64,000 bases of DNA, taken from NCBI RefSeq assembly GCF_014230055.1, contig NZ_JACHVA010000076.1, positions 1-64,000 of the forward strand, in the 5' to 3' direction. Of the stretch, positions 4,536 to 61,475 are shown piece after piece. The position numbers and the translations under genes were made by a program. The notes beneath the pieces were generated by a model. It worked only from the letters and a program-made list of their open reading frames with translations. It did no database searches and was not told the origin of the DNA. This DNA is from Puniceicoccus vermicola (GTDB taxonomy: Bacteria; Verrucomicrobiota; Verrucomicrobiia; Opitutales; Puniceicoccaceae). Each line of letters begins with the position of its first letter. The first letter of the stretch is position 1.

Positions 4536-5342
4536 CTACTCGCCCTCCGGAATAGGGATGAGGCGGCTGTTCCAACGGGTCATCGTCTCGTTGGTGGGGA
4601 AAAAGATGCAGAGGGCGCGGTAGCCATTCCCAGTCGGCCAGCGGCGACGGTAGACGAGACGGTAGGTGTCGTCGTCGTCGATTGCGGCGAGGATCTGGTA
4701 GGGAACGGAAGAGCCGGAAGGAAGCTCTATTTTTGCCCCTCGCCCGGGCCCAATCGTGAGCTTTTGGTCACTGGTGGCGACTTTGAGGGGGATGGATCCC
4801 ATATTGAATCCGTAGATCGTGTTCGGAGGGATGTTGTCGAAGTCGATGGGGATGGCGACGAGCTGGTGGGTTGCCTGATCGGGGTTGTCCTGGCCGAGGA
4901 GGAACTGGGTCTGATTCAGCCCGGGTGTGAGTTGGCTTTGCAGTTGAGGGACGTATTGATCTTCTTGGTCGGGGCCTTGCGCCGGGATGCGCCGGTAGAG
5001 AGTAAAATTTATCGGACCTTGATATTGGATGGGGTCGCTGATGGCGTTGCGATCAAACTGGATCGGGTGAAACTCGTTTTGAGTCCGGTAGTAGAGTTCG
5101 TAGGTGTGGGGTTGATATTTTTCCGGAACCTCCTCCCCCCGTTCGTATCTCACTGGAGGGATATGGCGATGCAGGAGAATTTGCAGGGTGGCGCTAACCT
5201 GTGGAGGTTCTCCCTGGGCAAGGGGGCTGGCTAGGACCAGGAGCAGAAAAAAGAGCTCGGTCACTCGGCGACGGATCCGGGCGCGAAGGTCTGCTTTGGG
5301 ATCTCGAACTGCAGAGGAGAGAAAGGGGGACTTAGATTTCAT
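4536..5342 (-). CDS. Small secreted partner of Verru_Chthon cassette protein A (copy 1)
   Basis: The longer open frame starts inside the upstream gene, but ATG 5342 is preferred: it overlaps the end of the upstream cassette gene by 11 bases (coupled translation) and places a signal-type segment (TELFFLLLVLASPLAQG) near the N-terminus of a 268-residue protein. The body has no known motif. Its C-terminal half (IPPNTIYGFNMGSIPLKV, then DDDDTYRLVYRRRWPTGNGYRALCIFF split by a short gap) aligns by eye with the protein at 57336-58073 (FPAGSYQIFNLSEYAITG ... WTLAYNSLWPHRTNFRSNIFIFG, also with a gap), which likewise follows a cassette protein A gene. A role beside the pilin-like cassette protein in the envelope is inferred from that repeated pairing. 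Confidence 0.65.
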   Translation of the reverse strand: MKSKSPFLSSAVRDPKADLRARIRRRVTELFFLLLVLASPLAQGEPPQVSATLQILLHRHIPPVRYERGEEVPEKYQPHTYELYYRTQNEFHPIQFDRNAISDPIQYQGPINFTLYRRIPAQGPDQEDQYVPQLQSQLTPGLNQTQFLLGQDNPDQATHQLVAIPIDFDNIPPNTIYGFNMGSIPLKVATSDQKLTIGPGRGAKIELPSGSSVPYQILAAIDDDDTYRLVYRRRWPTGNGYRALCIFFPTNETMTRWNSRLIPIPEGE

Positions 5343-8300
5343 GGTCTTCGAGCCACCGGAAGGAGACGACTTTGTAGGGACGTTCATTCGAGCCGGGGCG
5401 GATTTCCTGAGGTTGGCGTTGGACGACCATTTCGCATCTGGCGCGGGCGACGGACTCGTTGGTGATAGGATCCACCGATTGCCCGTAGGAGCGGATTTTG
5501 AACGTGTCCGACCGGACCGAGAGGGCCGCACCGACGCGTGAGAGGAGGTCGGCCTGGGTCATGAATCCGGGCTGGCCGTAAGAGAGCGATCCCATGCCCG
5601 TATACCGATTGAATTGGTTGAACCGATTGAGTTCGTTGTAGTCGATATAGTTGTCGGGTTGTTCGTAGCGCTGGTTGATGCTGGAAGCTTCGAGAGCGGC
5701 CTGAAGGGCACCGATCGCGCGCTCGCGCTCGGTCGGGCTCAGGTTGAGACGAGCATTTTCGTGGGATGAGAGGAAGGCAGGGTCGTCAATGACCCGGTTC
5801 ACGAAGTGGCTGAGAGAGATGAAGGGGCCGCGTTTCTTGACCTGTTCGACGATTTCGGTAGCGAGGTCTTCGATCTCCAATGAACTGAGGGTGCGGTATC
5901 CGGCATAGGTCGGTGCAGCTTGCTCGTCCGAAGTGTCGGCTTCTCCGAGTAGGGGAGAGGCGTGTTTCAGGTAGGGGGCCCTGTCGTCGTAAGGTGTGCT
6001 GTTGATCGTTGCCCCTACCGTTCCTCCCAGGAGCGATCTCCAGGCATCGATGGAGGTCGAGTTGACGTTAAAGGCACCGCGGATCATAAGAACTTTTGCG
6101 GCCTCTTTGTAAGATTGAATTTCGGAAGGGGTGGCATTTTCCGAAGCAATGAGGCGCGGGTTGAGAATGATGGAATTGGCGGAGTCATACTCGGCGAAAA
6201 AGTAGCGGTCCCAGAGGTAGTCGTTGAGAAGGTAAGACCAGTCGTAGAGCGAGGACTGAGGATCGGTCGGAAGGTTGGAACGCGTGAGGTAGGTGTGACG
6301 GCTGCGGTCGTCCAAGGGGACCCCGAGGGGGGCCAGGGAGTTGCCAATCGCGAAGGCGGGATAGCTGCTGTTTACATTCCAATCCGAGTCGCTGCTGGCA
6401 AGGGAGTCATTGAAGAAGTTCGTGATTGAGTCGGTGCGAGGTGAGGGGGGAGCGGTCGACGCGTGCGTGAGAGAACCGACAGATTGGAAGTATTCGGGAC
6501 CAGAGGGGATATCGAAAAGAGTGTCCTGGGTGATCAGGGAGATGTTGGGGTCGTTGGTGTAGCCCACTGCGGGCTGAGTATAGAGGAGGGATTGGTAGAA
6601 GCTTCCCCAATCTGTGGAAGAGCTCCCGGGTTCCGCCCAACGGTAGGAGCTCATGTTGTCGGAGCGGTTCCCCGACCAATTGAGGTAAAGTGGGTTGTAG
6701 CGGGTATCCCGGCCGGGCTGCTGGGCATGCTCGATGGGAGTGCGTTCGCTTCGGACGGCTCGAGGATTGAAGGAAGCCAGAGTCGAAACGATCGGCTCCA
6801 GATTACTGTTGTAGGTGACCGGGTGGAAATTTTCGGTCCAGCGGAGATTCTGGGTGAATCCAACAATCGGGAAATAGTTGTCACCGCCTAGACTGGCTGC
6901 CGGGAGAGAGTTCCAAGTCGTCGAGGATGCCGTCGCTTCAGCGAGAATGTTGGAAGGCGAGACGGACCACGCGGGAAATGGGTTGGAGGTCGTTGAGCTG
7001 TTGCTCAAGGCGCCGTGGTTGAAACCACCGACCGACTGAAGTGGATGGTTCTGGATGAGGTTTTGCAAGGTGTTGTTGCCGAGGTTAACCCCCATGAGGA
7101 TCACCAGATTGTTAAGGCTCGAGGTGTTGGAGCTATTGCCAAGGTCGCGGGCGAGTCTGAGAGTGAAATTCTTGCTGAGGTCGGGGACGTTGCCGGAGTC
7201 TGTTGGGCGGAAATTTTCACTGAGATCTGAGTAGAAATATCCGCCTTGGATGAATGCGGGCGAAGAGGCATCCGCCAGAGTGTTTCCGATGCCGCTGGCG
7301 CTGGACCAATCTTGCTCTTCTACGCCGGGAGGGAGGAAGAGCTTTGCTTCGCCGGCGGCAAATGAACTGGTGATATTCAACCGGATGGCTCCATGGTCCT
7401 TCCCGCCTTCGTCCCCCCCGTCGAAGACGACAGGTTGGCTGCTGCTGCTGTACTTTGGTTCCCAGGTATGAGTGTTTCCGCTGGTGTCGGTCCAATCGAC
7501 TTCCGGAGTCCAATTGTATTTCAGTTTGTTCGCGCTTGAGGTCAGGATGAGGCTATAGGTTGTTTGCGGTAGATCCACATTATAAGGATTCCAGAGCATG
7601 ATCGCGGGGAACACCATCAGGCGGGCGGTGTATTCAGGATTGGATGGCGTCGAGGCGGTGGTCTCAAGGAGCATCATGTGGGTGTGCAGCTGAACCATCG
7701 TGATGACGGGATAGACTCCCATCAGACTGTTGGTCTGAGGTTGGACGTTGAGGCTGTTGGCTCGCATGCGGTAAAAGCTGCGAAGCTGTTCCCACGGAGG
7801 GCCTCCGGGGTCCCGCCGCTCGACCTGAGTAGCGCTGTTGCCGCGGGCCGCGTCGGAGTCGGCTGGGTCATAGGGCTGAGCTTGATTGCGGTGGCCGAAG
7901 ACGAGCTGTCCGTGTTCTGCGAGAAGAACTCCGAACTCGGTGTCGTCGGAAAAAGCGCCGCTGAGGTTGCCTTTGAGTCCGCCCTCGCGAGCGTCGGAGA
8001 GGACTCCCAGGGAAAGGGGAGTTAGATCGTGGTAATGGTTGGCGAGAAGGCCGTTGATGTTCCCATTACTGAGCCCAACACCTTCCAGTGGATAGCGGAG
8101 CTGGTTCAGGCGGGTGATTCTGGCGAGTAGAGCGGTGTAGGAGTCGTTCTCAAAGATGGAACCGAGGCTGTTGAGAACCGTCAGATTTTCCTGAGGATTG
8201 CTATCTTCGATAAATTCCGGGGCCATCCGTGGTGCGGAGAGACTGCTCAGGGCCGCATTCTGGGGAAGGTTGCTGCGCGCGTGAGGATTGTCCATCGCGA

Positions 8301-8952
8301 CGCTGGCTTTGATGCCTTCGTCGGCAACCCACCATGCGTAGTTCGCCTCAATGTCACCGCCGGTGTTTCGGAGGTCTTCGAGAGGAAGATAGATATTTCG
8401 CGGGTCCGCCGGGTTTGCTTTGTCGATCTCCAAAAGGGGGATGTCGGAAGGCTGACGGGTATGGTTCGAAGGATTCGCGTTGGGGGAGCTGACCAGCCAA
8501 GCGAGGGCGCCGCCCGGATTTCCGAGACCGTTTTTGATCGGAGCCGGATTTTGATGGGGATCTCCTCCGGTGCCGTGGTTTGGATCGTGGGGATTGGTAA
8601 TCCAGACCCCGGTCCAGTAAGGCTCCGTGACTCCGGTAATGGCTTCCGTGTCGGTGGAAGTGTCGAGGATGGAGGCGCTGGCGGTGACCCGCTGATCGGC
8701 ACCTGTAGTCTGTTGTAGTTCACCGAGGGCTTCGATTGCTGCAAAGAGAGCGACTTGCCGCGCATCGGTCTTTTGTGAAACCGTTGTTTGATGAAGAGTC
8801 TCGATCCGAAGCCAGCCCGCAATCGTGATGAGAAGGATGAGGATCAAGGCCATCAGTGAAAGCGAAATCACGAGGGCGAAGCCGGATCGTTTTCGGGACT
8901 GAGCACGACAGGCGGAAGGTTGAGGCCGAGAGCCTGCGAAATGGTCTTGCAT
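5332..8952 (-). CDS. Verru_Chthon cassette protein A-like, pilin-like N-terminus (copy 1)
   Basis: A large exported protein (1206 residues from ATG 8952; a TTG at 9018 is an alternative start). A basic leader precedes GFALVISLSLMALILILLIT, which resembles the cleavage site and hydrophobic helix of type IV prepilins and PilX/GspK-like minor pilins. Then come AALGELQQTTGADQRVTA and a run of Asn/Ser/Thr-rich sequence with WWVADEGIKA and INRYTGMGSLSYGQPGF-like segments. This build matches my knowledge of Verru_Chthon cassette protein A (TIGR02600 type) of Verrucomicrobia. Other cassette members (B, C, D) are not seen here. The C-terminus (FKIRSYGQSVDPITNES ... RCEMVVQRQP) recurs in the second copy at 58 kb. 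Function is unproven; an envelope pseudopilus-like role is inferred. Confidence 0.8.
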   Translation of the reverse strand: MQDHFAGSRPQPSACRAQSRKRSGFALVISLSLMALILILLITIAGWLRIETLHQTTVSQKTDARQVALFAAIEALGELQQTTGADQRVTASASILDTSTDTEAITGVTEPYWTGVWITNPHDPNHGTGGDPHQNPAPIKNGLGNPGGALAWLVSSPNANPSNHTRQPSDIPLLEIDKANPADPRNIYLPLEDLRNTGGDIEANYAWWVADEGIKASVAMDNPHARSNLPQNAALSSLSAPRMAPEFIEDSNPQENLTVLNSLGSIFENDSYTALLARITRLNQLRYPLEGVGLSNGNINGLLANHYHDLTPLSLGVLSDAREGGLKGNLSGAFSDDTEFGVLLAEHGQLVFGHRNQAQPYDPADSDAARGNSATQVERRDPGGPPWEQLRSFYRMRANSLNVQPQTNSLMGVYPVITMVQLHTHMMLLETTASTPSNPEYTARLMVFPAIMLWNPYNVDLPQTTYSLILTSSANKLKYNWTPEVDWTDTSGNTHTWEPKYSSSSQPVVFDGGDEGGKDHGAIRLNITSSFAAGEAKLFLPPGVEEQDWSSASGIGNTLADASSPAFIQGGYFYSDLSENFRPTDSGNVPDLSKNFTLRLARDLGNSSNTSSLNNLVILMGVNLGNNTLQNLIQNHPLQSVGGFNHGALSNSSTTSNPFPAWSVSPSNILAEATASSTTWNSLPAASLGGDNYFPIVGFTQNLRWTENFHPVTYNSNLEPIVSTLASFNPRAVRSERTPIEHAQQPGRDTRYNPLYLNWSGNRSDNMSSYRWAEPGSSSTDWGSFYQSLLYTQPAVGYTNDPNISLITQDTLFDIPSGPEYFQSVGSLTHASTAPPSPRTDSITNFFNDSLASSDSDWNVNSSYPAFAIGNSLAPLGVPLDDRSRHTYLTRSNLPTDPQSSLYDWSYLLNDYLWDRYFFAEYDSANSIILNPRLIASENATPSEIQSYKEAAKVLMIRGAFNVNSTSIDAWRSLLGGTVGATINSTPYDDRAPYLKHASPLLGEADTSDEQAAPTYAGYRTLSSLEIEDLATEIVEQVKKRGPFISLSHFVNRVIDDPAFLSSHENARLNLSPTERERAIGALQAALEASSINQRYEQPDNYIDYNELNRFNQFNRYTGMGSLSYGQPGFMTQADLLSRVGAALSVRSDTFKIRSYGQSVDPITNESVARARCEMVVQRQPQEIRPGSNERPYKVVSFRWLEDHEI

Positions 8953-44464: not shown

Positions 44465-45181
44465 ATGAAGGGTTTTGAAGGAAAGAACTACCGAGCGTTC
44501 ACTTTGATTGAGCTCTTGGTCGTGCTCATGATTTTGGGAGTTTTGGCGGCGATCATTATACCGGCCGTTGGAAAGGTGAGGGAGACGGCCAAACGATCGG
44601 CCTGCGCGAGCAATCTCCGCCAATGCGGGGCGTCTCTTCTCACCTATGCGGCGGACAACAATGGGACGCTGGCCAATGGCCATCCCGACGGTTATCCGGA
44701 TAAGCTCAATCGGTCTTTTATTACGATGATGAAGGAACGGGGCTACATCGATGACTTCAGTGTTTGGTCTTGCCCCGCAGTGGGTGGGGTGCCCTTGGAT
44801 GACGAAGCGAATACTCTTGAAGAGCTTCGCGGGTCGTATGCCTATTTTGGCAATCTCTACGGTCCTTCGCGGGTGCTGCAGCTAACTTCCAACTCTTTGA
44901 TTATGCAGGACTTGATCTACTCCTATGCGGGAGAATGGAGAGTAAACCACAGCAACGGGGGAGAGTTGAGGGAAGATGCTATCACAGGGAATCCATCATT
45001 CTCGACTTATTTTGGAGGAGTGCCAGAAGGCTTTAATTCGTTGTTCGCGGATAACAGTGTGATGTGGACGGATTGGGAGGATCCGGAGGGCTCAGACAAG
45101 GTGGTTTGGTTGAACATGGGGGCGGGAAGCTCGAAAATCCCCGGTCCAGTTCGGGCTCAACCTAAGGAAGATGCGATCTGA
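44465..45181 (+). CDS. Type II secretion/pilin-like protein (prepilin-type N-terminus)
   Basis: From ATG 44465 (GAAGGG 9 bases upstream) a 238-residue protein. The N-terminal RAFTLIELLVVLMILGVLAA is a prepilin signal with cleavage before Phe and Glu at +5, followed by the pilin helix. The rest (SACASNLRQCGASLLTYAAD, DDFSVWSCPAVGGV, FNSLFADNSVMWTDWEDPEG) resembles the DUF1559/H-X9-DG class of pseudopilins common in Planctomycetes and Verrucomicrobia. It is alone, with no other secretion gene, inside an enzyme cluster. TGTTAC (44390-44395) lies 70 bases upstream. Confidence 0.85.
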   Translation: MKGFEGKNYRAFTLIELLVVLMILGVLAAIIIPAVGKVRETAKRSACASNLRQCGASLLTYAADNNGTLANGHPDGYPDKLNRSFITMMKERGYIDDFSVWSCPAVGGVPLDDEANTLEELRGSYAYFGNLYGPSRVLQLTSNSLIMQDLIYSYAGEWRVNHSNGGELREDAITGNPSFSTYFGGVPEGFNSLFADNSVMWTDWEDPEGSDKVVWLNMGAGSSKIPGPVRAQPKEDAI

Positions 45182-53323: not shown

Positions 53324-54307
53324 TTAAAATTCGCCGAGTTCGGGTGGCTCCCAAACCCCAGCGGCATCCCGGAGGGTGATGTAGGCAGCCTCGCGGAGAG
53401 AATCGGCTTGTTCGTCAGTAAGAGTTCGGGGCTGATATTCGATCTCGCGGGGGTCCTTCCGGAAAAAGAACCCGTACCAGACCAGGCTTCCCAGGTACTC
53501 ACCGTTTTTATTGGCGTGAAAACCATCAGTTCCGATGACCCAGTCTCCCTCAGAATTCTTTCTCCAGTAGAAGATTTTGTTGAGACTCTTGCTTTCATCG
53601 GGCATCCGGGATTTCCCTTCTGGATAGGGAAGCGAATATACATCAAAGTCTACCGGTTCATAGTCCCAAAGAGGCATCTTTTGGGCCTCTTGGAAGGCGG
53701 TCCCGACCGGGATGACCCGAAGGCCCTGTTCAGCAGCGAGATTGTAGTAGTTCTCGTGCAGTCGCTCGTACATCTCATCGGGTTGCAGGTTCCACTTTTT
53801 CGTACGGTAGCTGTCGACGTTGTGAGGCCAAGTTTCATGGACGACAATCTGGGCCTGAGGTGCATATTCATGGATGTAGCCGATGAGCTTTTCCGCATGA
53901 GGCGAGAACGTCTCTGCTTTATGACTTTTCGAGCTGACTTGCTGAATGGTTACGTAGTCCCATTTTTTGTCTTTGAGGATGTGTTCCAAGGAAGCCTTCT
54001 TTTCGATGCGCTCATTGTTGATGTCGTAGCCGTAATTGTTTCCTTTCTCCTGATTCTCGGCGTGTTGCCGGGCTAGGGCGACATGGAGCGAGAGCGGTGA
54101 GGCACCGATGATGGCCCGTCCGACGACGACGTCGTGTTCGGGATCGCTGGCCGCGATCTCAGGAAGGAAACGGGTGGCGTTTTCGGTAAAGCTGTTGCCG
54201 ATCCCGAGGATGTAGAGGGCTCCATCCTCTTCCGCCGATGCGAATGTCGCGACGAGCGCGAGGCAGCTGAGACTGAGCCATTGAATCATGAGGATTCGTG
54301 TTTTCAT
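53324..54307 (-). CDS. Secreted SGNH hydrolase (DUF4886 type)
   Basis: A 327-residue exported protein (signal IQWLSLSCLALVATFASAEE). The catalytic Ser39 is in LYILGIGNSFTENATRF; the oxyanion and Asn/Gln region is VVVGRAIIGASPLSLH and YVTIQQVSSKSHK; the C-terminal DGFHANKNGEYLG carries the Asp/His pair. This matches DUF4886 SGNH proteins, probable carbohydrate esterases. It is 54 bases downstream of a larger SGNH gene on the same strand, so the two are probably co-expressed. Confidence 0.85.
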   Translation of the reverse strand: MKTRILMIQWLSLSCLALVATFASAEEDGALYILGIGNSFTENATRFLPEIAASDPEHDVVVGRAIIGASPLSLHVALARQHAENQEKGNNYGYDINNERIEKKASLEHILKDKKWDYVTIQQVSSKSHKAETFSPHAEKLIGYIHEYAPQAQIVVHETWPHNVDSYRTKKWNLQPDEMYERLHENYYNLAAEQGLRVIPVGTAFQEAQKMPLWDYEPVDFDVYSLPYPEGKSRMPDESKSLNKIFYWRKNSEGDWVIGTDGFHANKNGEYLGSLVWYGFFFRKDPREIEYQPRTLTDEQADSLREAAYITLRDAAGVWEPPELGEF

Positions 54308-54361
54308 AAAGTGCTTTCGGTGTTTCTGCTGTGGTTTTTTTGACCGTCTTCGGAATCGAGC

Positions 54362-57097
54362 TCAGGGAAGGTCTTGGCGGACTTTGTAGAATCTCCGATC
54401 CAATCCACTGACGGAGGTGGCGAATGGGGGAGTGGGGGCTGGAGTTACCGGTTCCCACGAATCGGTGAGGTCGTCATTTTGCAAAAGTTCACCTTCTTGC
54501 GTCCAGTCGAGAACGAGGTCATTGCCGAGAAGAACCGGAGGGTAGAGAGTCAATTCCTCCTCAGGCGTCCGGATATTCATGGCGACGGCTCCGATGTAGT
54601 AATAGCCGGGCCCGTTGCTGTTGTGTGACCCCGCTGACAGCGAGAGCACGATGGTGCCTTCATTGGTCGGACGAATGCCGTTGATGCTGACCGTTTCGGT
54701 CTCGTTGCTGGCTGCATCCAAATTCGCAGATCCGGAATTTGCTCCCGTGATCTCGTAGTGAGTTTCGCGGTTGTCACTGACCCCCATCCGTGAGGCAAAA
54801 ATCGTAAAATCGTAGGTCCAATCCCGGTTTAGGTTGGAGAATGTGAACGCCCCGGTTGGATTTGAATTCTGGCCATACAAGCTGTCTCTTGTTGCTCCAG
54901 AAGGGAACGGCCCGGAGCTCGTTCCATTTTTGTTGGTACCATCCAAGGAGTCCGTCAGCGAGACACTGATCGCGGTGGAGTTGCCCTCTCGATCGAGCAG
55001 GTCGTCGGTGTAGAGGGTGGGGGTAGCCGAGGGTTCGTCGATTACATTCCAGGAGTCGGCCGAGATGACGGTGTAACCGCTGCCGAAATCAAGATATACG
55101 GTTTGAGCGGTCGAGAGAGACCCCCATTTGAGAATACTACTTTCTGGCAGAGGATTTCCACGCTGATCGGTGACGGATGGCTTCACGTAGATGGCGTAGC
55201 GTCCGTTGATTGCCTCAGCCAGCGTTAGGGTGACATTCAGTCCGTCGCCGGAGAGATCTACGGCGATCGGCGTAAGACGGCGACCTCGATAGGCGATTTC
55301 GTAGTTATCCGCCTTGGTGGCACTGGAAGAATCAAGCGGCTCGCTGAACGAGAGGAAGATCTGATCGGGACCGGCCGGATTCGTGGAGTTCAAATTGGGC
55401 GGAGTTTGGTCAGGCAGAACGGTGAGAGTAACGGGTTCGGTTTCAACCGTGCGGATCCCGTCGTCGAATGCTGCGACATAGATGTCGCCATCCTGGCTAA
55501 AAGCCACGTCGCTCACCGTGAGGTTCAGGCGGGTGGCTCCGTCAATCAGATCTCCGTTTCGATACCACTGAATAGAGTAGGAGCGGTCAGCCTCGACTTG
55601 CGTAGCAAAGCTTGCCGAGCCGCCTTCTTCCAGTGTTTGGGAGGCCGGTTGCTCAGAGACTTCCAAACGAGTGTGGGGAATTGTATCGATTCGAAGGGTT
55701 CCCAGGTCGGTGTAGTGAGCGCTGCTGTTGTTCTCAGGGCCGGGGCTGAGAGCAATCGTGATCTCGCCTGAGGCATTGGGGAAGACGGGCAAGGTCGATG
55801 CGCTTTCTTCCACATTGCCAGCCGAATCGAGAGTGGCGCTTTCGACGGTTTCTCCAGTGACCGTGTAGCGCGTTTGAAATTGATCGCTGACCCCCATCCG
55901 TGAGGCGTAAAACTCAAAGATGTAGGCAACGCTTGGATCCATTCCGGTAAGCGTAAACTTCGGGGTGACGGTGCTCAATCCATTGTCAGTCTCAGTGTTT
56001 CCGTAGAGAAGGTCGCGTGTGGCAGTTCCCGGGAATAACGTGGAGTCGGTGGTGCCCGACGAAGAGCTTTGGTTGAAGCGTGAAAGGATCTTCAGCTCGA
56101 TGGGATTGGAGGTTCCGTCATCGTATAAGAGCCCGCTGAGGACCGAGCCTTCGGTCGTCGCCTTCGGGTTGGTCAAATTGTTCCAGCTCTCTCCGGGGAG
56201 AGGATTACTGGGAGTTTCTGAATCGGTGGAGCCAAAGTCGATCAAGGTCACTTTATCGGTCAGTCCGGCCCGGTTGACGGTCTGCCAGGCGATTTCTTCG
56301 AGAAAGGTGAAGTCTTCGTCGGTAATCTTCAGGTTGAGGTTTTGAATTTCGGGTTGGGAGTGCAAGCCGACCGGACTGCTCTGGTAAATACTCGCATAGT
56401 GCACACAGGCCGAAAGATAGTAGCCGTTGTCGTTTCCGTGATACTCGTCGTATTTGTAGAGGTCGATAAAGTCCGGGTCGGAGGCCGGGAGGTAGCCGCC
56501 GGCGTTTCGCCAAGCATCGCCGACCGGATTGACGAGGACCGGGTATTTGTCCGGGTTGGTCTCCGTGAGGTAGTCGGCGAGTGCCTGATAGTTCGTCCGC
56601 AGTTCATCGATCATTTGGTCCGTCGTCGCGAAGTGTCCGCTATCAGAGGTTCCGGAGATCATTCCGTGCACTTCCGCACGCGACCAGGTCAGGTAGAGGT
56701 AGACTTGAGTGTCGGGATTGTTGGCCATTACCGAGTCGTAGAGCAACTCGCCGTATTCCATGTGTTCGTCGATGTCGCCGACATGGGTTGGTTGGGTTGA
56801 GTAGTTTTGGAGAACGACCTGAGTCCATTGCTCATCGTCAATGAAGCTTTGACTGTTCTCGTAGTGGTATTGGAAATCCTTTCCTCCGACGGCTCTCATC
56901 TCCGTAAGAGGATCCTCTTGGCCAGCGGCGTTTGCCAACGCATCGAAAATCGTAGGCACGCTCACAGTCCCTCCATCGCCGAAGGTGAAACTATTTCCGA
57001 TAAAGAGGACCTTATTCTCGGCGTGTAGGATGGATAAGAAGCCGAGGAGGCCGAAGAGGGCCGCCAGCAAGCTGAATATTTTCGTACGATTGATCAT
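54362..57097 (-). CDS. Multidomain secreted SGNH hydrolase with duplicated domain
   Basis: A 911-residue exported protein. A signal (FSLLAALFGLLGFLSILHAE) precedes an SGNH domain (about 28-275: KVLFIGNSFTFGDGG, VVLQNYSTQPTHVG, and a late HYASIYQSSPVGLHS). Then a ~170-residue domain occurs twice (about 285-470 and 665-840), each beginning LIDFGS/YLDFGS and containing FYASRMGVSD / FASRMGVSDNRETHYEITG. Between them lie an Ig-like domain (QTLEEGGSASFATQVEADRS) and an Ig-like/CopC-type domain (DQIFLSFSEPLDSSSATKAD). It ends with the short module ENDDLTDSW-like LLQNDDLTDSWEPVTPAPTP. Substrate unknown. Confidence 0.8.
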   Translation of the reverse strand: MINRTKIFSLLAALFGLLGFLSILHAENKVLFIGNSFTFGDGGTVSVPTIFDALANAAGQEDPLTEMRAVGGKDFQYHYENSQSFIDDEQWTQVVLQNYSTQPTHVGDIDEHMEYGELLYDSVMANNPDTQVYLYLTWSRAEVHGMISGTSDSGHFATTDQMIDELRTNYQALADYLTETNPDKYPVLVNPVGDAWRNAGGYLPASDPDFIDLYKYDEYHGNDNGYYLSACVHYASIYQSSPVGLHSQPEIQNLNLKITDEDFTFLEEIAWQTVNRAGLTDKVTLIDFGSTDSETPSNPLPGESWNNLTNPKATTEGSVLSGLLYDDGTSNPIELKILSRFNQSSSSGTTDSTLFPGTATRDLLYGNTETDNGLSTVTPKFTLTGMDPSVAYIFEFYASRMGVSDQFQTRYTVTGETVESATLDSAGNVEESASTLPVFPNASGEITIALSPGPENNSSAHYTDLGTLRIDTIPHTRLEVSEQPASQTLEEGGSASFATQVEADRSYSIQWYRNGDLIDGATRLNLTVSDVAFSQDGDIYVAAFDDGIRTVETEPVTLTVLPDQTPPNLNSTNPAGPDQIFLSFSEPLDSSSATKADNYEIAYRGRRLTPIAVDLSGDGLNVTLTLAEAINGRYAIYVKPSVTDQRGNPLPESSILKWGSLSTAQTVYLDFGSGYTVISADSWNVIDEPSATPTLYTDDLLDREGNSTAISVSLTDSLDGTNKNGTSSGPFPSGATRDSLYGQNSNPTGAFTFSNLNRDWTYDFTIFASRMGVSDNRETHYEITGANSGSANLDAASNETETVSINGIRPTNEGTIVLSLSAGSHNSNGPGYYYIGAVAMNIRTPEEELTLYPPVLLGNDLVLDWTQEGELLQNDDLTDSWEPVTPAPTPPFATSVSGLDRRFYKVRQDLP

Positions 57098-57335: not shown

Positions 57336-58073
57336 CTACTCGGATGAGTCTGGATTCAGGTATTCTTTGAAAACCTGTACGTTGACAGGATTCACCTCAT
57401 CATCCGTGCCGAAGATGAAAATGTTGGATCGGAAATTGGTTCGGTGAGGCCAGAGTGAATTGTAGGCGAGGGTCCAGCTATCGCCTTCAGAGCGGGCAAA
57501 CTTCACCTCAATTGCAGTCGTTTCACGATTGGAGAGTTCCACGACGGTGCTGTCCATGTCGTTCAATTGGAAGAGTTCTTCTCCGATTTTTCCCGTAATT
57601 GCGTACTCGCTCAAATTGAAGATTTGGTAGCTGCCCGCCGGGAATATTGATCGGTCTCTCTTGACGGTGAAAACCTGATAATGCTCATCACTTCCGCCGT
57701 CGTTTCCCATGAATAGGATGAGGACTTCCTTTTGGTTTGGGGAGAGTTTTGCGTTTGCAACTGGGATTCGTTGGATCGTTCCGTCCGAAGGGGATCTTTC
57801 TTCGCGGAAAAATATCATCGAAGGCGGTCCAGAATAAGAGTGAGGCTGGGTAAACGTCCGGGTGTAGATGCTGATCGTTCGGACTTGGCCATCGGACTCA
57901 TATTTGAGGTCTTCGATATTCCTGTTTCCCAGCGCGAGGGTTGTAAATTCGACGGAGACCAAGTCCTCTTCCTTCATGGTGGCCGCTTGTGCGAGGCTGT
58001 TGAAGAAGAGCATAAGAGCAAGACCGATGGGGGCGGGATTCTTCAGGTATTTCATAGGAATAGTTCGTGCCAT
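57336..58073 (-). CDS. Small secreted partner of Verru_Chthon cassette protein A (copy 2)
   Basis: The start taken is ATG 58073, 4 bases after the stop of the cassette A gene (an ATG at 58055 is an alternative); the longer frame lies inside that gene. The 245-residue product has a signal (IGLALMLFFNSLAQAATM) and an unknown beta-rich body. Segments FPAGSYQIFNLSEYAITG and LAYNSLWPHRTNFRSNIFIF align by eye with the protein at 4536-5342, also next to a cassette A gene. The tight spacing supports co-translation and joint function. Confidence 0.65.
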   Translation of the reverse strand: MARTIPMKYLKNPAPIGLALMLFFNSLAQAATMKEEDLVSVEFTTLALGNRNIEDLKYESDGQVRTISIYTRTFTQPHSYSGPPSMIFFREERSPSDGTIQRIPVANAKLSPNQKEVLILFMGNDGGSDEHYQVFTVKRDRSIFPAGSYQIFNLSEYAITGKIGEELFQLNDMDSTVVELSNRETTAIEVKFARSEGDSWTLAYNSLWPHRTNFRSNIFIFGTDDEVNPVNVQVFKEYLNPDSSE

Positions 58074-58077
58074 GAGA

Positions 58078-61000
58078 CTAAATTGCTTCTGGGGTGATCC
58101 AGCGAAAGTCGACGATTCTGAACTTGCGTCCAAACTGTCCGGGAGGGTCATTTCGATCGGCACTTGAGTTGGGGGTTCCTTCCACCGGTTCGGCGACGCG
58201 CTGAACGACAGCTTCGCAGTAGGCTTGCGACAATATGCTGCTAGTTATCGGATTGCGGGAGTCTCCGTAAGCGCGAATCACGAAAGTATCTGAGCGAGCG
58301 GTGAGGATGGGCGCTAGTGCTTGAAGGATATCACCTTGGAGGAGATGACCCGTCATTCCGGCACTTTGAGAACCATGTACCGTGGTTACGAATGGAGAGG
58401 GGCCTTGCGTTCCCGAAAAAGTGTCGGATAGGGATGCCGAAATATTGGCGTTGACCGTCTGATCCAGGGATTGTTGAAGAATGCCACTCAGCTGTTCGTC
58501 ATCGGTTCCGGAGACAGTATCTTGGAGACTGCGGTTGACAAAATTAGCCATGGATCCAAATGGGCGTCTACGTGCTTGAATTTGGGATACTATCTCATTT
58601 GCTAAGTCTTGGATTTGAGTAGCAGAGAGTTCGTGGTATCCGCGCCAAAAATTGTCGTTGGTGGTCGAGTCGTTCGTCTTGAAGGCACTCCCATAGTGGA
58701 GATTGAGTCGGGTGAAAAAGGTCTCGGTAGATTCGGAGGTGGGAATTCCGGTATTCGGGTCGTAGACGGGAAGATCCTGATCATGCATGGCGCTCAAGAT
58801 AGCGGTCCAGGCTTCTACAGAGGTGGAGTTGACATTGAACGATCCGTTAATCATGAGTTGCGAGGCCCAGGCGTGATAGTCCTCCAGTTGAGTCTTGGCA
58901 CCGTTGAAGATGCCTTCGTCGAGGATCTCTTGGCCGGATTTCGTAAAGAGGTAGCGCTTATTACCATAGGATTGTTCATCGACCGTCTCAGTGAGCTGAT
59001 TTTTGGTCAGTCCAGGATCAATCGAAGAAAAAAAGTAGCTGTCCCAGAGTTTCTCATTAACCAGATAAGGTAGGTCATAGATGTCGAGTCCGCTCTGACC
59101 GTCATAGTCTTCATTGACGGACATGCCCATGGGAATGCGGGGATCTGCATAAGAGTTGCCGGCGATGTAGCTGGGATCGTGATTATATCGCGAGAGGTTG
59201 GCGTGCTGGAGGGCACCCAGCGAGAGCAATGGCTCGCGTGGAATGTCGAAAAGGATGACGTTGCCGGCACCAGTGGTTCCGATGGAGTTCCCCCAGCGGA
59301 CGGAATACCGGGCATTGTTGACGGTCTGGGGTAAGCTAATGCTACTCTCGAGTCCACGGTCGCCCTGCGCGGCAAACCCGCTCATGGTCGTATTCCCTTG
59401 TCCACTCGTGAAGCCGTCCCAATCGGATGAACCTACAAGGGGTCGGAGATTGCTGTCTATGCCATTGCGAAGTCCGTACGGATCCCGTGTAGTTTGGAGA
59501 TTGTAGACCCAGCTGGCCAAGTCGAATCCGCCCACCAAGTTTTCGGCTGCTTGGTTGCCCATCGGGTTATTCAAAGTAGCCGGGCTCAGATTGCTTCCTT
59601 TTTGCCAGAGGTTCCCGATTCTTTGTATACTTTTGAAGTAAGGGCTGGTTGACTTCGCATCTTTCCACATGCCCGAGTTTTTATCCTTACCTTCACGAAG
59701 GTTGAGAAACATTCTTTCGCCTATGTCGATTTTGGTGACTTGGATTTGTTCGCCTTTGCTGGCTTCGATATTTAATTTAAGAGAAAGTGCTCCGTTGGGG
59801 GATAGAGTATTGCGTAGCCAATTCGTTTTTTGCCATCCCGTAATCCAGTCGGTCCGGTCCTTGGGCATGAACAGGCGCGTTTCCCCAGGCAGAAAGGAGG
59901 TCGTGTTGTCGCCGGAACTGTCAGCCTTCTGAGTGTTCAAAATGAAAATCATGTAATTATCCAGTTTGTCATCAACGATGTCGAAATCCTTGAAGCTCTT
60001 GGTATAACTGTTGCCTCCGACGGTGAGGGTGACCGTAGGCTTGAGGTAAAAGTAAATGGCGTAGACTCGGTTCGAAATCTCGATGTTGTAAGGATTATAG
60101 AGTCCGAAAATTGGGTTTACATCCAAATAGACGTCATAGTTGCCATCATCGTTCGACTCCGTTCGAAGACTGAAGATGAACTGGATGCGCGAAAGTATAG
60201 GGTGAACAGGGTTGTTTTGCTGGTATTCATCGTCCCCTTTCGAGTTGCCCTCGTAGGGGTTAAAGCCATTTCGCAGGTCCGTATCGAGCCCGGGTGTGGG
60301 CACGATCGTTTCGAATGTTCCGGTTGTGGCCGTATTATATAGGTTATAATAGTCTTTGAGAATATCCCAGTTCGGACCGGTGGGAGAGCCGGTTTGACCA
60401 TTCTCCAGTCCATCGACGAAAAATCGTTCCGGACCGTCCGCGGCCGTCCCAAATTCCATCTCGTAGACACTGTTGTCTTCGAAGGCGAAAGTAAGATCCT
60501 TTTTAAATCCGCCGTTACGAGTATCCACCAGCAGTCCCCGGCTCGCGGCCGTGATGTCGTGAAAATGCTTTTTGGAAACGGTCCGGTTTCCGGTGAGGAA
60601 ATAGAGATCTTCGCGGAATTTGGCATCACCGATGAGAGCATTTTCCTCAACGTTTTGGCCGGAGAAAACGGTATCCATTTGATTGATGCCATACTGGTAG
60701 GAAACGGTAGTCGGTGAGCCGGTTTGGCTATCCGTGGGTAGGTTGTCTTCAGCCATGATGTTATACTTGGCTTTGATTCCCTCATCGCCCACCCAGTAAG
60801 CGTAGCGACCGGCGGTGTTTCCGCTGGGGTTCGGGATTTCCACTGTGGGAGCTTTGACGCGGACGCGGTCCCGTTCGGCTTGGGTTGCCGTGGGATCTTG
60901 ATCGTCCACCAGCCAAACGGAATCAAATTGGGCATTCGGATCGGAAACGGTAGAGTCAGAGTCCAGGTAGTCGGGGTCGCTGGGAGACTTACCTTCATTG

Positions 61001-61350
61001 CCGCTGATCAGCCAGGCCGGTGAAGCGGTGGTGTTGCTCGCGTTCCAGATTCCTGTCCAATGAGGGTTCTCCGCATTTGCATCCGTGATGTCTCCGCGGG
61101 CTGAGACCGTTTGGTCGGGGCCTGCAAATTTCTGAAGTTCTCCAAAGGCGAGAAGCAGACTGAGCTCGGCATTTTCGCGCGCTTCCATCTTGCGCTGTTC
61201 TGTCTGGGCGCTGCTTGTCTCTACGGATAGGTAGGTCGACAGCGTCACCAAGAGCAGGAGGATGAAGGACATCAAGCTGAGCGAGATAATGAGTGCAAAG
61301 CCAGAGTCTGTGGATCGGAATCCTTGAGAAAGGGTGATTTTTCTAGGCAT
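58078..61350 (-). CDS. Verru_Chthon cassette protein A-like, pilin-like N-terminus (copy 2)
   Basis: From ATG 61350 a 1090-residue protein. MPRKITLSQGFRSTDS is followed by the prepilin-like GFALIISLSLMSFILLLLVT and LLAFGELQKFAGPDQTVSAR, then a long Asn/Ser/Thr-rich exported region with YWVGDEGIKAKYNI, matching the same positions of the protein at 5332-8952. The C-terminus (ARSDTFVIRAYGDSRNPITS ... YCEAVVQRVAEP) is also shared. The protein probably sits in the envelope as a pseudopilin-like component. It stands with its small partner as a two-gene unit; no B, C or D cassette genes are near. Confidence 0.8.
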   Translation of the reverse strand: MPRKITLSQGFRSTDSGFALIISLSLMSFILLLLVTLSTYLSVETSSAQTEQRKMEARENAELSLLLAFGELQKFAGPDQTVSARGDITDANAENPHWTGIWNASNTTASPAWLISGNEGKSPSDPDYLDSDSTVSDPNAQFDSVWLVDDQDPTATQAERDRVRVKAPTVEIPNPSGNTAGRYAYWVGDEGIKAKYNIMAEDNLPTDSQTGSPTTVSYQYGINQMDTVFSGQNVEENALIGDAKFREDLYFLTGNRTVSKKHFHDITAASRGLLVDTRNGGFKKDLTFAFEDNSVYEMEFGTAADGPERFFVDGLENGQTGSPTGPNWDILKDYYNLYNTATTGTFETIVPTPGLDTDLRNGFNPYEGNSKGDDEYQQNNPVHPILSRIQFIFSLRTESNDDGNYDVYLDVNPIFGLYNPYNIEISNRVYAIYFYLKPTVTLTVGGNSYTKSFKDFDIVDDKLDNYMIFILNTQKADSSGDNTTSFLPGETRLFMPKDRTDWITGWQKTNWLRNTLSPNGALSLKLNIEASKGEQIQVTKIDIGERMFLNLREGKDKNSGMWKDAKSTSPYFKSIQRIGNLWQKGSNLSPATLNNPMGNQAAENLVGGFDLASWVYNLQTTRDPYGLRNGIDSNLRPLVGSSDWDGFTSGQGNTTMSGFAAQGDRGLESSISLPQTVNNARYSVRWGNSIGTTGAGNVILFDIPREPLLSLGALQHANLSRYNHDPSYIAGNSYADPRIPMGMSVNEDYDGQSGLDIYDLPYLVNEKLWDSYFFSSIDPGLTKNQLTETVDEQSYGNKRYLFTKSGQEILDEGIFNGAKTQLEDYHAWASQLMINGSFNVNSTSVEAWTAILSAMHDQDLPVYDPNTGIPTSESTETFFTRLNLHYGSAFKTNDSTTNDNFWRGYHELSATQIQDLANEIVSQIQARRRPFGSMANFVNRSLQDTVSGTDDEQLSGILQQSLDQTVNANISASLSDTFSGTQGPSPFVTTVHGSQSAGMTGHLLQGDILQALAPILTARSDTFVIRAYGDSRNPITSSILSQAYCEAVVQRVAEPVEGTPNSSADRNDPPGQFGRKFRIVDFRWITPEAI

Positions 61351-61475
61351 ACGCTGTAGCAGAGAAGTTGAAGAGTGGCGATTGAAGAACGATCCGATTC
61401 CACGTAGGTAGACCAAGGCGTTGGGTGGGGCCCCAATTCCAAGGTCGGTTGAGATGCCGAAAGTGACTTCGGAAT

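Follow-up and report, generated by a model that had tools for sequence, protein, structure and literature searches.

A recurrent gene pair of a predicted giant GspK-type pseudopilin and a secreted partner in Verrucomicrobiota, possibly a set of swappable filament tips

GspK (XcpX), the minor pseudopilin K of type II secretion systems (T2SS), has a glycine before its prepilin cleavage site and no glutamate at position +5. A giant GspK-like protein, Verru_Chthon cassette A (TIGR02600), occurs in the phylum Verrucomicrobiota. ComZ of Thermus thermophilus, described as a competence pilin, is GspK-like with a large inserted domain; it has a β-solenoid, binds DNA and has been argued to be a tip receptor (PMC6561018), and PilC of Streptococcus sanguinis is a lectin minor pilin, a modular tip pilin with an extra domain that binds glycans (PMC9934059). 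Together these two indicate that a tip able to bind a ligand can be formed by a K-like or a modular pilin, and the Kil system of Myxococcus xanthus, a Tad-type pilus used in prey killing, indicates that one filament can have alternative tips, of which it has four (PMC12075869). Verruconatronum alginivorum, from the same order as the organism studied here, has 67 pulG-like pseudopilin copies in one genome, one of them in an alginate gene cluster (PMC13274419); this was the sole closely related report from a literature search on pseudopilins and minor pilins in Verrucomicrobiota, which, with most subscription papers outside its reach, is no proof of novelty. A search with the same reach found no paper naming Verru_Chthon.

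Here we describe a two-gene unit whose large protein shares with GspK and XcpX the predicted whole-length fold, the glycine before the cleavage site, the lack of glutamate at +5 and, in three metagenome genomes, the K position after H, I and J. It differs from them in being three to four times longer, in its large inserts, its roughly 30 copies in one genome and its dedicated secreted partner, and in scoring below the cut-off of the GspK model. Cassette A is likewise a giant GspK-like protein of the same phylum and has the first 200 residues in common with it by profile comparison, whereas canonical cassette A loci have adjacent B/C/D-type prepilins and no partner, and the large protein lies far below the cassette A cut-off. 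ComZ resembles it as a GspK-like protein with a large inserted domain, but here there are about 30 copies, as a rule each with a non-pilin partner; PilC is comparable as a modular tip pilin, but its extra domain is another one and it is not a multi-copy family with secreted partners. The Kil system has several tip complexes per filament, as we propose here, but is Tad-type and kills prey. The expanded family of V. alginivorum is GspG/PulG-like and not GspK-like, and the genome analysed here has both kinds.

The pair in the window and in other genomes

The window, a stretch of 64,000 nucleotides from Puniceicoccus vermicola (contig NZ_JACHVA010000076.1), contains the same two-gene pair twice, both times on the minus strand, at 4536–8952 and 57336–61350, where the initial annotation had placed it. 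In pair 1 the large gene (5332..8952, 1,206 aa from ATG), assigned to the predicted GspK-type family from its open reading frame (ORF), the family alignment and homology to the modelled copy of pair 2, is followed by a partner gene (4536..5342, 268 aa) whose start overlaps it by 11 bases. In pair 2 a gap of 4 bases separates the large gene (58078..61350, 1,090 aa from ATG, with the ORF opening at an upstream TTG at 61416) from the partner gene (57336..58073, 245 aa). These ORF coordinates agree with the overlap and gap previously claimed, as do the sizes of 1,090–1,206 residues, whereas the "1.1–1.2 kDa" given for the large protein was wrong and must have meant about 1,100–1,200 residues. The suggestion that the partners are related to each other proved correct in profile comparison: searching with partner 2 recovers partner 1 (E = 7e-8), and a profile built on 24 paralogous partners covers both over nearly their full length. 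A prepilin-motif pattern applied to the window detected no B/C/D-type prepilin gene beside either pair, its sole match being a GspG-like gene at 44480–45181; the reported absence of such genes thus holds beside both pairs and fails genome-wide, a K-less H-I-J trio lying on another contig. Downstream of pair 2, at 53324–57097, are two secreted proteins with like starts (LYILGIGNSFTENA and VLFIGNSFTFGDGG), which probably belong to the DUF4886 proteins counted near pairs.

Searching the whole genome, we found about 30 large genes spread across many contigs, roughly 30% identical to one another, and partners likewise. Of 30 large genes, A04 is truncated and A10 and A11 extend past the ends of their contigs, leaving 27 readable copies; the partner follows directly after 24 of these, at a spacing of −25 to +29 bases, and three intact copies (A08, A18 and A20) have none. 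GTDB genomes hold at least 578 stretches encoding relatives of the large protein. We sampled 79 loci from named or binned Verrucomicrobiota and Kiritimatiellota, two of which end less than 400 bases past the stop codon; at the other 77 the partner lies directly downstream on the same strand in 68 cases, with a median spacing of 6 bases, and conversely a large gene stands upstream at all ten partner loci checked in ten genomes. With about 30 copies in one genome and at least 578 stretches in GTDB, the pair recurs far beyond chance, and the counts bear out the earlier proposal that the two-gene unit is a distinct form with the partner as its usual companion. Consistent with this, the distance matrices of large proteins and partners correlate (r = 0.76 for 90 pairs, where permutations reach 0.10; r = 0.70 for 23 paralogues of this genome, where permutations reach 0.37), which indicates that the two are inherited as a unit and is no proof that they bind.

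Several copies have unusual surroundings. A10 and A11 are identical over their last ~900 bases and diverge upstream (L064 and L065, at the contig ends of C106 and C123), and A08 and A09 share 1 kb of identical sequence up to near the stop codon and then differ (L062 and L063, at the starts of C106 and C107); the assembly breaks at these near-duplicate genes, and the pattern, judged from sequence, looks like recent duplication or gene conversion. Elsewhere, two tandem partner genes follow a single large gene (L137:11411-13060). In genus g25, large-family genes of ~1,330–1,390 aa lie immediately beside another large-family ORF whose N-terminus is missing (L302, L303, L304 and L305); no partner was detected next to the large genes at these four loci, and a link of these genes to Akkermansia Mul1A is a tentative lead. 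Near-identical REP-associated transposase genes, Y1-type by the look of their sequence, occur at L082:10080-11054, in L264 (C118, ~40802) and in L266 (C127:209590-210570); one copy immediately follows a pair and another adjoins the T2SS operon.

Predicted folds and the relation to Verru_Chthon cassette A

The AlphaFold model of the pair 2 large protein, built with 73 sequences, has a pLDDT of 90.3 and a pTM of 0.89. A plain Foldseek search with the whole model yielded nothing beyond weak hits to toxins and barrels and placed GspK 19th; VIA-align resolved the fold, with GspK (3ci0_K) as top match (Z 14.1, 236 of 280 residues aligned, 3.0 Å), XcpX (5vtm_X) second at Z 13.8 and the third match at just Z 4.7. 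Because the GspK and XcpX matches span residues 46–1087, that is, the whole length, the model suggests a GspK-type pseudopilin enlarged by insertions. The inserts include a β-rich region at about residues 385–668 (59347..60198, minus strand, approximate borders), delineated from secondary structure, weak Ig/C2-like matches over residues 385–616 and the conservation profile, which places the least conserved stretch of the protein here. A predicted prepilin signal fits this assignment: GFA is invariant in 25 copies and is accompanied by a hydrophobic residue, and no glutamate, at +5, the codon for the invariant glycine before the predicted cleavage site lying at 8881..8883 in pair 1 (G^FALVISLSLM) and at 61300..61302 in pair 2 (G^FALIISLSLM), both on the minus strand.

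Sequence models reach less far. The GspK model NF037980 matches 7 of 25 paralogues weakly (best E = 1.1e-6), and its cut-off of 130 bits is reached by no large copy of this genome, the best scoring 31 bits. Comparing the profile of the large family with one of Verrucomicrobial GspK, from a rough alignment with some badly trimmed entries, we found the N-terminal helix alone to be significant (92%), the later pieces being weak and collinear, and a sequence search of the PDB with profiles of the large protein and the partner gave no useful relatives. The model identifies the large protein as a predicted giant GspK-type minor pseudopilin with a variable β-rich insert.

The partner belongs to an unnamed secreted family. 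Its pair 2 member is modelled (pLDDT 91.8) as an N-terminal hydrophobic helix followed by two β-sandwich domains, for which the nearest fold is the extracellular domain of PepT2 (Z 13.8), a match in sandwich arrangement that reveals no function; the second domain resembles AlgF domains (Z 9.1 and 8.6) and the C-terminal domain of cholesterol-dependent cytolysins (about Z 9). In the model the likeness to PepT2 and AlgF is that of a shared sandwich fold and shows neither family membership nor function. Among 70 partners searched against Pfam and NCBIfam at E ≤ 0.1, single scattered matches to other families appeared, none consistent and none to an AlgF or PepT family.

The initial annotation had called the large protein a Verru_Chthon cassette A protein. 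A profile search for TIGR02600 (hmmscan against NCBIfam) left the four window proteins without any match at E ≤ 1, and across the genome TIGR02600 reaches seven large proteins over about their first 60–85 residues, the best copy scoring 30.6 bits (residues 1–58) against a cut-off of 332.3. That cut-off was passed in four genomes alone of the 193 in the phylum, and 12 loci from these four served as the true comparison set: B/C/D-type prepilin genes adjoin most of them, and the partner profile detected a partner at none. Alignment of the large family with TIGR02600 by hhalign gave 97.8% (E = 7.5e-13, columns 8–204), the common ground being the N-terminal helix and a DE-x-K region (WVGDEGxKA / DDExxKVNIN), with detectable homology limited to about the first 200 residues. 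These common elements make TIGR02600 and the large family distant cousins, both of GspK type; since no copy reaches the cut-off, the pair is not a canonical Verru_Chthon cassette, and membership of TIGR02600 is ruled out by score and gene content. One might still read the large gene as a plain cassette A gene that lost B, C and D next door and kept the TIGR02600 function, as the shared helix and DE-x-K region and weak TIGR02600 contact in 13 of 25 paralogues could suggest. With no copy near the cut-off, canonical loci devoid of the partner and homology ending after some 200 residues, we regard this as highly improbable, and as a family assignment it is largely refuted.

H-I-J genes and filament machines

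In three metagenome genomes (L090, L106 and L112) the pair closes a five-gene order of GspH-like, GspI-like, GspJ-like, giant K and partner, and the prepilins of these sets that were scanned match cassette B, C or D and Gsp models weakly. The P. vermicola genome has one H-I-J trio (C139:53682-56002), which no K gene follows. The J of this trio can be aligned, for most of its length, to the J proteins of the five-gene sets (E = 2e-14 to 8e-7), and no alignment was obtained with the J of the genome's own T2SS. Across 53 genomes of the order, a J profile found J in 39, nearly always as a single copy; about 32 genomes remain at E ≤ 1e-15, and the weakest matches may be other GspJ-like proteins. 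Large-gene candidates number from 0 to more than 30 per genome in the same set, and J is missing from every one of the seven genomes that lack a significant match to the large gene (Fisher p = 2e-5, kinship ignored). At 30 J loci that we read, giant K is directly next in three (G018, G198 and G229), and at most of the others one or two prepilins stand before J and the short flank that was read shows no giant K. The H-I-J-K order occurs in L090, L106, L112 and G018; the window copies stand alone. A single J would be compatible with all tips using it, and is not proof that they do.

The genome also contains a T2SS operon, which includes a GspK of ordinary type, as well as genes for PilT-type and assembly ATPases. 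It has more than one filament machine that might assemble giant K tips. It further encodes 54 N_methyl prepilins, mostly GspG/PulG-like and ~250 aa long, such as that at 44480–45181 of the window, a second expanded pseudopilin family. At L128:7815-14416, a large gene that no partner follows stands 200 bases ahead of GspG-H-I-J-K genes.

Neighbouring genes and candidate roles

Near the pairs of this genome, 11 of 90 genes encode sulfatases and 9 of 90 LacI regulators, compared with 1 and 0 of 92 genes from control regions. Near pairs in other genomes the same two were again the most frequent neighbours, but more thinly so and with no control set. Such neighbours make polysaccharide recognition or enzyme export a likely role. 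The number of sulfatases was rejected as a driver of the number of tips, the two correlating weakly (rho = 0.37, p = 0.006, 53 genomes, kinship ignored); some genomes have more than 100 sulfatase candidates and few tips, and one (G045) has 19 tips and 7 sulfatase candidates.

About 30 units together with an apparently single base set suggest interchangeable pilus tips, and we give about an even chance to one shared H-I-J base carrying many swappable giant K tips which, with their partners, recognize polysaccharides. The large protein, with its N-terminal prepilin helix, pilin core and big variable insert, would cap a type 4 filament, either a T2SS pseudopilus or a type IV pilus, atop the H-I-J base, and the partner, exported to the periplasm, would most likely bind its cognate large protein at the exposed head. 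The genome would then hold a single matching base for about 30 alternative K tips, the majority of them paired with a partner of their own and many encoded close to sulfatase or LacI genes. A substrate-responsive regulator would turn on one tip, and the tip in use would give the filament its specificity, most likely by binding a particular polysaccharide. Points against this reading are the loose relation between the numbers of tips and sulfatases, the three intact copies that have no partner, and the presence of an ordinary GspK and of several filament machines. The tip is likely to act either as a polysaccharide receptor outside the cell or as a periplasmic selector of enzymes for export.

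The second of these roles, taken by itself, becomes a different account, in which each giant K, on a periplasmic T2SS pseudopilus, selects for export the enzymes encoded at its own locus and the partner is a substrate adaptor or chaperone. In its favour, GspK is defined as a component of the T2SS, the proteins matched in fold come from T2SS, the genome has a T2SS operon, the large gene at L128 precedes GspG-H-I-J-K genes, and many pairs have enzyme genes nearby. Against it, the genome's own T2SS has a GspK of ordinary type and a J other than the one matching the giant-K sets, and around many pairs a distance of 10 kb includes no sulfatase, so that we consider export specificity possible and on the whole rather unlikely. 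Some 30 diverse paralogues at ~30% identity, and a pair of them the same at the 3′ end and different before it, as gene conversion would give (A10 and A11), could also reflect a diversified surface structure whose copies vary against phages or predators or for cell–cell contact rather than for nutrition. Enrichment of sulfatases and LacI regulators over control regions argues against such a structure, which we consider improbable.

Swappable polysaccharide tips would fit with Akkermansia muciniphila, in which pili genes are reportedly required for mucin uptake. How Verrucomicrobiota capture many different polysaccharides is poorly understood. In its fullest form our proposal is tentative and falls short of an even chance: a Verrucomicrobiota type 4 filament in which one H-I-J base serves as many as some 30 giant K tips, every tip having a secreted partner of its own and being specialized for a single polysaccharide, as a pilus counterpart of the many SusC/SusD pairs of Bacteroidota. 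Swappable tips predict that the base is single, that the tips are many and that each tip is switched on by its own substrate. If this is true, two large uncharacterized families would gain a role, the K-less H-I-J genes of many genomes would be explained, and a tip exchanged by replacing the K subunit and its partner alone would offer a general means of targeting.
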